In this document: piece by piece, positions 32,833 to 35,095 of the stretch | How positions within the stretch are numbered: position 1 is the first letter of the stretch | How the letters are laid out: every line of letters starts with the position of its first letter | Virus record (IMG/VR): IMGVR_UViG_3300020187_000102 | Coordinates: 1 to 35,095 of that record | Direction: 5' to 3' (one strand) | DNA length: 35,095 bases | Source of the DNA: a virus | The notes under the pieces: generated by a model | What the model was told of the DNA's origin: nothing | Database searches by the model: none | The model's input: only the letters and a program-made list of their open reading frames with translations | Made by a program: the position numbers and the translations under genes

Positions 32833-32994
32833 TTATTTACTCTTTTTCTTAGACGCTTTTGGGGCTTCACTATAAGCTTCCGCTCTACCCATCTGAATTA
32901 GCACCCGTCCATCACTATCGCTCACCTCGGCAATAGCTCCCTTTAATAAATCTACACCGCTAGCAGCGGTTGAACTTAAAATTTTAATCTGCAT
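32833..32994 (-). CDS. 53-residue small head protein (FI-position)
   Basis: Encodes MQIKILSSTAASGVDLLKGA, IAEVSDSDGRVLIQMGRAEA and a Lys-rich end. The order I-K-x-L-S...G-x-x-x-x-V-S-D-x-D-x-R-x-L-I-x-x-G-x-A-E matches short phage proteins that follow capsid genes, often annotated as head-tail or hypothetical. Start ATG 32994 lies after GAGG. It occupies the FI slot between capsid and FII. Confidence 0.6.
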   Translation of the reverse strand: MQIKILSSTAASGVDLLKGAIAEVSDSDGRVLIQMGRAEAYSEAPKASKKKSK

Positions 32995-33050: not shown

Positions 33051-34310
33051 TTATGAACCGCCAGAGCCTTTAGCAAATGACTGAGCGTGACGAACAGCAA
33101 TATCAACGTCCTGCATACAAACTACGCGAACAGTGCCAGAAGCAGAGCCAGTAGAAGTATCCACGTTAATATCAAGACCGCCCCACATGCCGATGATTAA
33201 ATCAGCGAAATTGCCAAACACAACTGTATTGGCAGTCATTTGGTTAGTAACTGCCATGTTGTAGCCGTTCACTTGACCATTTGCCATGACAAACTGACCC
33301 GAACCCGCATCTTTTGCCTTTTGCTTCATTGCGCCAGCCATTGCCGCCGTTGAAACATAACCAAGAGAACCGAACAAAGCGTTGTCAACAGAAACTTGCG
33401 ATTCAACATCAACCATTTCGCCAAAGGTTGGATTACCAGCCGCAGCAAATGTCTTTGCGCCGATGCCAGTAGTTGCCAAAATTCCTGTAGGCTGATTGCT
33501 TGATCCAGTGCCAGCAATGGCAGATAAATCAATTGCCATAGCTAGGCGCATTGCCAAGTCGTTACGCACAAAGCCCTCAATATCAATAGAGCTTTGAAGA
33601 AGTAACTTTCGGCTAATGTCAGAGAACGCGCCAACTGTTTTTGGTGTCATTGATACTTGGTCAAATGCTGCTTGACTCTCAGTAACAGCCGCAGACTCAG
33701 CGACCCAGTAAGCTGTTGCTCCACTGGTTTGACGAGGAATGGCTACATTGCCATTTAGATCACGAAGCATGGTTGCGCCCATGCTAGCAACGACCATTGC
33801 ATTCTCTAAACTATCAATAAATGAACTAGCGAGAAGATTTGTTGCAACAGTGTTGCCGCCCGCCGTTGCAGTGCCTACGTTAAGATCACGTTTTAAAACT
33901 TCACTTGGTACGAACAAACCTTGTGCAGTTCTGCCCATCTGATCTGCGGCTGCGCGAGAAGCTTCAAACTCAAACGCTGCATCTTCTTGAGCGCGGCGGT
34001 CACTAGGGTTAGCTAAAGCGTGAATTGCTTTCATAAAAGAAAAGTTACGAACTTCTTTGGCGCTTAAACCAATGTCATTATCTTTCTTTATTACTGGCTG
34101 GGCAGTTCCAATGGTATCTAACAATTGAGCGCGGAAAGCGTCAACAGATTTACCATCATTGATGAATGTACGAGCCATTTCTGGTTGGTTGTGCAAGTTA
34201 CCCGCTGCTTCAATGTTTTGAATGCGATCAACTTCTGAGCGGCGTGCCGCCTCTACTTCTGCCCGAACATCTACAGTCGGGGTTTCAATTACTGCTGCTT
34301 GAGATTCCAT
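33051..34310 (-). CDS. Major capsid protein from an internal in-frame start
   Basis: Within the fusion, the ATG at 34308-34310 has AAGGAA six bases upstream (34322-34317), the best ribosome-binding site of the region. It would make a 419-residue protein beginning MESQAAVIETPTVDVRAEVE, with a charged delta segment and the full HK97-fold capsid. That is a usual size for such precursors (HK97 gp5 is 385). It resembles lambda C/Nu3, where a second protein starts inside the protease gene. The alternative is capsid released only by protease cleavage. Confidence 0.65.
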   Translation of the reverse strand: MESQAAVIETPTVDVRAEVEAARRSEVDRIQNIEAAGNLHNQPEMARTFINDGKSVDAFRAQLLDTIGTAQPVIKKDNDIGLSAKEVRNFSFMKAIHALANPSDRRAQEDAAFEFEASRAAADQMGRTAQGLFVPSEVLKRDLNVGTATAGGNTVATNLLASSFIDSLENAMVVASMGATMLRDLNGNVAIPRQTSGATAYWVAESAAVTESQAAFDQVSMTPKTVGAFSDISRKLLLQSSIDIEGFVRNDLAMRLAMAIDLSAIAGTGSSNQPTGILATTGIGAKTFAAAGNPTFGEMVDVESQVSVDNALFGSLGYVSTAAMAGAMKQKAKDAGSGQFVMANGQVNGYNMAVTNQMTANTVVFGNFADLIIGMWGGLDINVDTSTGSASGTVRVVCMQDVDIAVRHAQSFAKGSGGS

Positions 34311-34859
34311 GATTGGTTCCTTAATTTCTTTAATTTCGTTAACTTCAACTAATGTTTTATGATTACTGTTTGCTGACCGCCCTACACCTACTGAGGCATC
34401 TGCGGGGATACTTACAATCGACACCTCGTATGGTTCCCAATCCAAAGCTCGGTATGATTCAGCACCTTCCTTTTCCTCTTCCATCACCATGCGGTGTATC
34501 CTGTAACCCACGGAAACGTGCTTACGAATACCATCCATTACATCGTTAAATATCTCTGTTGCGCGTGCGCTATTGCCAAAACGCACAGTGGCCCGACCTA
34601 CCCGATCACCATCAACAGAAACAGATTCCACAACGCCAACATGGTCAGAAGGGTCGTGATCTACAAGCACAGCACCGCCACCATTCAGTCTGCCAAGACG
34701 AATAGCGTTAGGGTTATGGTCAAGTATTTCATTGCCAAACCAGCGCTCAACAGGCTCCTCGCTGGAAAAAGCTAGGTCTACTGTTCGCGTTTCCGCATCA
34801 ACAGATTCCCTATTTAAATTAAAGGTGCGAAATAAATCGCCCGTATTTATCTCATTCAT
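33051..34859 (-). CDS. Prohead protease-major capsid fusion (HK97 type)
   Basis: A 602-residue fusion. Residues about 1-165 are an S78/U35-type prohead protease: LVDHDPSDHVGVVESV carries the catalytic His and HVSVGYRIH the Ser region, with VSIVSIPADASVGVGRS closing the fold. A helical delta-like segment (about 185-260) leads into an HK97-fold capsid (SFMKAIHAL, YWVAESAAVTESQAAFDQVSM, ISRKLLLQSSIDIEGFVRNDLA). ATG 34859 has AGAGG at six bases and overlaps the portal stop; an upstream frame to 34892 lies wholly in portal. An internal start at 34310 probably makes separate capsid. Confidence 0.9.
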   Translation of the reverse strand: MNEINTGDLFRTFNLNRESVDAETRTVDLAFSSEEPVERWFGNEILDHNPNAIRLGRLNGGGAVLVDHDPSDHVGVVESVSVDGDRVGRATVRFGNSARATEIFNDVMDGIRKHVSVGYRIHRMVMEEEKEGAESYRALDWEPYEVSIVSIPADASVGVGRSANSNHKTLVEVNEIKEIKEPIMESQAAVIETPTVDVRAEVEAARRSEVDRIQNIEAAGNLHNQPEMARTFINDGKSVDAFRAQLLDTIGTAQPVIKKDNDIGLSAKEVRNFSFMKAIHALANPSDRRAQEDAAFEFEASRAAADQMGRTAQGLFVPSEVLKRDLNVGTATAGGNTVATNLLASSFIDSLENAMVVASMGATMLRDLNGNVAIPRQTSGATAYWVAESAAVTESQAAFDQVSMTPKTVGAFSDISRKLLLQSSIDIEGFVRNDLAMRLAMAIDLSAIAGTGSSNQPTGILATTGIGAKTFAAAGNPTFGEMVDVESQVSVDNALFGSLGYVSTAAMAGAMKQKAKDAGSGQFVMANGQVNGYNMAVTNQMTANTVVFGNFADLIIGMWGGLDINVDTSTGSASGTVRVVCMQDVDIAVRHAQSFAKGSGGS

Positions 34860-35095
34860 CATTAGCCTCTTGATTGCTATTAATAATGTCATTAGTAGTT
34901 AGGCCAAAGCTTTCTAAAACTGCTAACTCAGCTTTACGCTCGGCGCATACGTCAATAAAATTCAAACCTGCTGCCGCTGTAATAGCAGTCAAGGTTCCCG
35001 TCCCCATCTCAACCATCAATTTATTTGCTTGCTGATCTTTTAGCGGATCAACCCAAGCCCAGCCGCGAGGTTGCCAATTCACTTTGGTAAACTTT
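34852..35095 (-). CDS. Portal protein, C-terminal part
   Basis: The end of the portal gene that begins at 1379 and crosses the window boundary. It encodes VNWQPRGWAWVDPLKDQQAN, KLMVEMGTGTLTAITAAAGL and CAERKAELAVLESFGLTTNDI, ending at TGA 34852-34854. The last eight bases overlap the protease-capsid start. WQPRGWAWVDPLKD is typical of the portal C-terminal region in this family. Bases 34937-35095 repeat the window start. Confidence 0.9.
   Translation of the reverse strand, partial: KFTKVNWQPRGWAWVDPLKDQQANKLMVEMGTGTLTAITAAAGLNFIDVCAERKAELAVLESFGLTTNDIINSNQEANDE
34937..35095. repeat. Right copy of 159-bp terminal overlap
   Basis: This repeats positions 1-159 with two third-codon differences (see left copy). 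The unique genome is about 34,936 bp if the copies are one locus. Confidence 0.95.

Follow-up and report, generated by a model that had tools for sequence, protein, structure and literature searches.

Comparative evidence for a nested, protease-free capsid precursor within a viral protease-scaffold-capsid fusion gene

The window analysed in this study, a stretch of 35,095 nucleotides corresponding to positions 1 to 35,095 of the IMG/VR record IMGVR_UViG_3300020187_000102, harbours a gene (33051..34859, minus strand) in which a prohead protease, a scaffold and an HK97-fold capsid protein are fused. Comparison with related genes suggests that it is a nested, two-product head gene: the 5' start would give rise to a protease-scaffold-capsid polypeptide and an internal start to a scaffold-capsid polypeptide without the protease, both products co-assembling into the same particle. 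We estimate the probability of this reading at approximately 0.87. The comparative data strongly support a selected site within the gene at which translation of a capsid precursor without the protease would begin, and since the start signal is conserved in more than 100 divergent relatives, the gene probably makes a small amount of fused protease together with a separate supply of the shell protein.

The full open frame extends from position 34892 to 33051 and could encode 613 amino acids. The ATG at 34859 was nevertheless preferred as the likely 5' start because it is preceded by AAGAGG (34866..34871, minus strand; duplex energy -5.8 kcal/mol), a likely Shine-Dalgarno (SD) sequence lying within the final part of the portal gene, whereas the ATG at 34892 is devoid of an SD (-1.5 kcal/mol). 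The resulting product comprises 602 amino acids (64.0 kDa). The 3' end of the portal gene (34852..35094, minus strand) overlaps the start of the fusion by 8 bases, and translational coupling of the two genes is possible. The product matches the PHROG family of the fused form of the major head protein (phrog_617) over its full length, residues 5-599 aligning with positions 5-622 of the 626-position profile (E 6e-169). In the case of the NCBIfam protease/capsid fusion model NF045541, the match was limited to the first half of the profile and scored 181 bits against a curated cut-off of 525; the gene is thus related to that family, yet outside its membership. Further downstream on the minus strand, between the capsid and head-closure genes, a frame of about 50 codons (32841-32994) resembles a small head gene, and relatives carry a small "hypothetical" gene at the matching position.

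The preliminary description, which left the strand unstated, had placed a protease and an HK97-fold capsid in one frame, and profile searches bore this out within a single open frame. The protease region (34379..34859, minus strand) shows a confident predicted fold of the S78/U35 type and matches Peptidase S78 (PF04586) at residues 64-159 with 34.1 bits (cut-off 21), while residues 334-598 match the HK97-fold capsid family (PF05065) with 154.6 bits (cut-off 24.2). Residues H68, S116 and E145, which we take to be catalytic from what is known of S78 peptidases, are conserved in 216, 218 and 220 of the 221 aligned sequences, respectively. An AlphaFold2 model, built from an alignment of 53 relatives, predicts the following order: the protease; a disordered linker (residues 162-197; 34269..34376, minus strand) with pLDDT below 50 at residues 175-195; a helical, delta-like scaffold region (residues 198-322; 33894..34268, minus strand); a second disordered stretch (residues 326-344), within which the cleavage site probably lies; and the capsid fold. 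The mature capsid region, from about residue 334 (33051..33860, minus strand), corresponds to all of the ordered residues of the capsid of Dinoroseobacter phage R4C (8GTA), which was retrieved by a Foldseek search with the predicted model at E 5e-23, structures of HK97 following at E ~1e-12.

The internal start proposed earlier is the ATG at 34308..34310 (minus strand), residue 184 of the fusion, with AAGGAA (34317..34322, minus strand) six bases upstream. Both the coordinates and the translation proved to be correct: this codon opens, in the same frame, a nested gene (33051..34310, minus strand) for a putative scaffold-capsid precursor of 419 amino acids (43.7 kDa) that matches PF05065 alone and contains no protease. 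In the AlphaFold2 model the start falls midway along the disordered linker, and the first scaffold helix begins 14 residues later. The alignment with TIGR01554, a model of free-standing capsid proteins, begins at residue 202, i.e. 18 residues past the internal start, and the nested product would therefore resemble in its layout a usual precursor of the HK97 type, delta domain included. No RNA structure peculiar to the internal start of this gene was found, the local fold (z 0.9) being not unusual.

Relatives of the fusion were collected from isolated phages, IMG/VR contigs and bacterial genomes. The 220 with an intact linker region were aligned, 110 of them being less than 70% identical outside the linker; one further sequence (L037) was excluded because its frame is broken in the metagenome contig that carries it. 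Although the linker is hypervariable in both length and sequence, the methionine, a residue otherwise rare there, recurs: all 110 divergent relatives possess an in-frame start codon there, 109 of them ATG and one (L139) GTG, the latter with AAGGAG upstream. When the identity cut-off was lowered to 60, 50 and 45%, a linker ATG was still present in 71/72, 27/28 and 15/15 relatives, respectively. Given the observed methionine frequency and the actual lengths of the linkers, a methionine would be expected by chance in about 76 of 109, and the maximum in 20,000 simulations was 92; the count set against these simulations was 107, as it stood before L109 and L217 were reassigned to ATG. Both of the latter had appeared to lack a linker start owing to artefacts, the portal frame having been taken in L109 and the methionine lying just beyond the aligned linker in L217, and each has an ATG with a good SD. 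By this comparison of sequences, a chance origin of the internal start is excluded. The fusion frame is open throughout in all intact relatives, and none of the relatives' loci that were fetched showed a split of protease and capsid at this linker.

Some fusions (L043, L061, L216) carry 200-300 extra residues N-terminal to the protease; the extra part in CRP-811 matches Hva1_TUDOR (E 2e-5), and that in L216 matches DUF5824 slightly below the cut-off. A fusion of this kind (L063; PQ671644.1, 5789-7789) was found in a record of 141 kb that is assigned to a T4-like Gaprivervirus (DCP80), where a mixed assembly or an odd acquisition is possible. The fusion of Salmonella phage PT1 (L048) bears the annotation "head-tail preconnector protease C / scaffolding domain Nu3", a label that obscures the identity of this gene as the major capsid gene. 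Plasmid records of Roseomonas, Klebsiella and Pseudomonas (H120-H126), probably phage-plasmids or prophages, contain related fusion genes as well.

The linker start codon is commonly accompanied by a putative signal for ribosome binding. SD strength was expressed as the energy of the duplex with the anti-SD. A threshold of -5 kcal/mol or better was reached by 67% of the ATGs in the linker and by 8.7% of the in-frame ATGs further downstream (p ~1e-39 for the difference); for other linker codons the value was 16%. SD-like tetramers form a sharp peak at positions -12 (49%) and -11 (40%) upstream of the linker ATGs, compared with 1% for control in-frame ATGs. In addition, RNA structure at linker ATGs is weaker than at other ATGs after correction for GC content (p ~3e-30). 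The internal SD was not found to be stronger than that of the 5' start among the relatives (-6.4 versus -6.9 kcal/mol, p=0.16). About a fifth of the relatives (21-23 of ~108) have an SD weaker than -5 kcal/mol. These include the cyanophages S-LBS1 (L049) and S-CBS3 (L052), in which the linker ATG is kept with hardly any SD, possibly owing to the start rules of the host; the others include contigs binned to other hosts, in which the ATG is likewise retained. There is a modest correlation between the strength of the internal SD and the strengths at the 5' start (rho 0.29) and at the next gene (rho 0.37), which is at most suggestive of weak internal SDs reflecting a low use of SD sequences in general.

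According to the nested reading, ribosomes initiating at 34859, adjoining the portal stop, would produce the 64 kDa protease-scaffold-capsid protein, and those initiating at the ATG at 34310 the 44 kDa scaffold-capsid protein, free of protease. The two products would co-assemble through their common scaffold and capsid parts, so that the procapsid would receive its protease from the fused copies, in a number below that of the capsid subunits. Cleavage by this protease near residue 330 would then strip off the protease itself together with the linker and the scaffold, leaving about 27 kDa. An excess of the short product over the fusion is only a prediction, because the 5' and internal SDs are alike in strength.

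The alternative that survives best, although we regard it as improbable, is that only the full fusion is made: each capsid subunit would carry its own protease, excised in cis or trans after assembly, and the internal ATG would be idle. The frame that stays open in all intact relatives is in keeping with this, and so is what is known of virions. R4C is itself a member of the family (L059), and its internal ATG has an SD of -9.5 kcal/mol. The gene product is present in its capsid in 415 copies (PMC10276861), and the solved chain 8GTA covers residues 362-629 of 629, i.e. the last 268; the protease, linker and scaffold, which precede residue 362, are therefore absent from the mature shell or not ordered in it. 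The mature R4C capsid would appear identical if all copies were cleaved fusions, and the structure paper mentions neither a protease, nor cleavage, nor an internal start (PMC10276861). In the virions of phage B8b the fusion product was the most frequent protein, with 937 spectra and 42.7% coverage (PMC4294664), a value that fits the presence of chiefly the mature part. The results for both phages are compatible with cleaved fusions as well as with an internal start. If the procapsid were of the T=7 type, like that of R4C, an all-fusion particle would contain 415 protease domains, or ~8.4 MDa, a heavy load, yet not one that we would call impossible, since by our own estimate it is not forbidden by volume alone. 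What full-length synthesis alone leaves unexplained is the linker ATG, the SD at fixed spacing, the choice among synonymous codons described below, the GTG swap and the weak RNA structure.

It may also be asked whether the conserved methionine and the Lys or Glu-Glu upstream of it serve the protein, e.g. as a protease cut site or a linker motif, the SD match being incidental. Lys-Glu and Glu-Glu are indeed common directly upstream of the methionine, but the codons used for them there strongly favour AAG and GAG. For Lys-Glu at the SD position the ratio of AAG to AAA is 25:3, compared with 93:121 elsewhere (p=2e-6), and for Glu-Glu GAG outnumbers GAA as the leading codon by 24:7, compared with 117:266 elsewhere (p=4e-7). 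In linkers with a single ATG, the mean SD energy is -6.4 kcal/mol for the real sequences versus -4.2 for synonymous recodings (p=6e-13). Moreover, SDs occur in each of the three codon phases (62/12/9) and arise from differing amino acids, being built also from RG, QRS, LED and others, one relative has valine, encoded by GTG, in place of the methionine, and the predicted structure places the methionine within a disordered stretch. A reason for the methionine at the protein level leaves this pattern of SD, synonymous codons and RNA structure unexplained, and such an origin seems very unlikely. Equally hard to credit is an SD-like site acting as a pausing or frameshifting signal that tunes the folding or release of the protease domain, given that, while some programmed frameshifts do use intragenic SD-like sites, the motif here is fixed at -12/-11 of an in-frame start codon, and every intact case continues downstream in the capsid frame, which makes a shift unnecessary. 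Hence the preliminary proposal that the internal start yields a protease-free capsid precursor gains strong comparative support from the conserved methionine, the SD at fixed spacing, the synonymous choice, the GTG case and the weak RNA structure.

The nested reading has a familiar parallel in the C/Nu3 genes of phage lambda, a protease-scaffold gene with a nested start for the scaffold. In both instances there is one in-frame gene, whose 5' start gives the protease fusion and whose internal start gives a protease-free product. The earlier suggestion that the present gene works as C/Nu3 does stands as far as the mechanism is concerned, a selected in-frame start with an SD following the protease domain. 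It does not extend to the product: lambda nests the scaffold only, has its capsid protein gpE encoded separately and employs another type of protease, whereas here scaffold and capsid are nested together and the nested product contains the PF05065 capsid. The gene is therefore C/Nu3-like in its working and was not classed as a member. The gene of Gifsy-2, which reportedly encodes a ClpP-like protease in contrast to the S78 protease found here, is the nearest precedent and is similar in combining protease, scaffold-like middle and capsid in one gene; going by the title of the paper describing it, it is a "tripartite capsid gene" (Effantin et al. 2010, Virology 402:355, cited in PMC8538268). With HK97 the gene shares the protease and capsid families and the delta scaffold at the capsid N-terminus, but gp4 (protease) and gp5 (capsid) are separate genes there and fused here. 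The gene also resembles that of R4C, a homologous fusion with an internal ATG and a strong SD, and the annotated protease-capsid fusions of phrog_617, which have the same domain order.

Protease-capsid fusions as such are already well known (NF045541, phrog_617, SEA-PHAGES usage in PMC9671004), and nested starts in head genes are known from lambda C/Nu3; what appears to be new here is the conserved internal capsid start in S78 fusions. The records and papers examined for annotated fusions give the long product only, and no report of such a start was found in the literature searched, most subscription papers, including that on Gifsy-2, lying outside the search.

The arrangement does not appear to be confined to close relatives. 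Seven distant fusions, those of B8b, S1, RcMeacham, PBb002, 1.050.O, the actinophage Anseraureola and LPPA33, all have a linker ATG after the protease with an SD of -5.6 kcal/mol or better, in a non-random sample chosen as annotated or evident fusions. We lean, with some reserve, towards the view that protease-capsid fusions in general, across several unrelated lineages and including an actinophage, are two genes in one, that selection has repeatedly placed or kept a linker start which sets the ratio of protease to capsid, and that the annotated capsid N-termini would be wrong for most of the protein made.

The nested start offers a concrete answer to the question of how single protease-scaffold-capsid genes avoid one protease per shell subunit, and it makes the dosage of the protease in procapsids testable through a change of one codon. 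If the reading is true, the N-terminus recorded for the main precursor would be incorrect in hundreds of capsid entries in the databases. Comparison of the starts further suggests that a two-gene module can fuse and yet retain separate control of dose.
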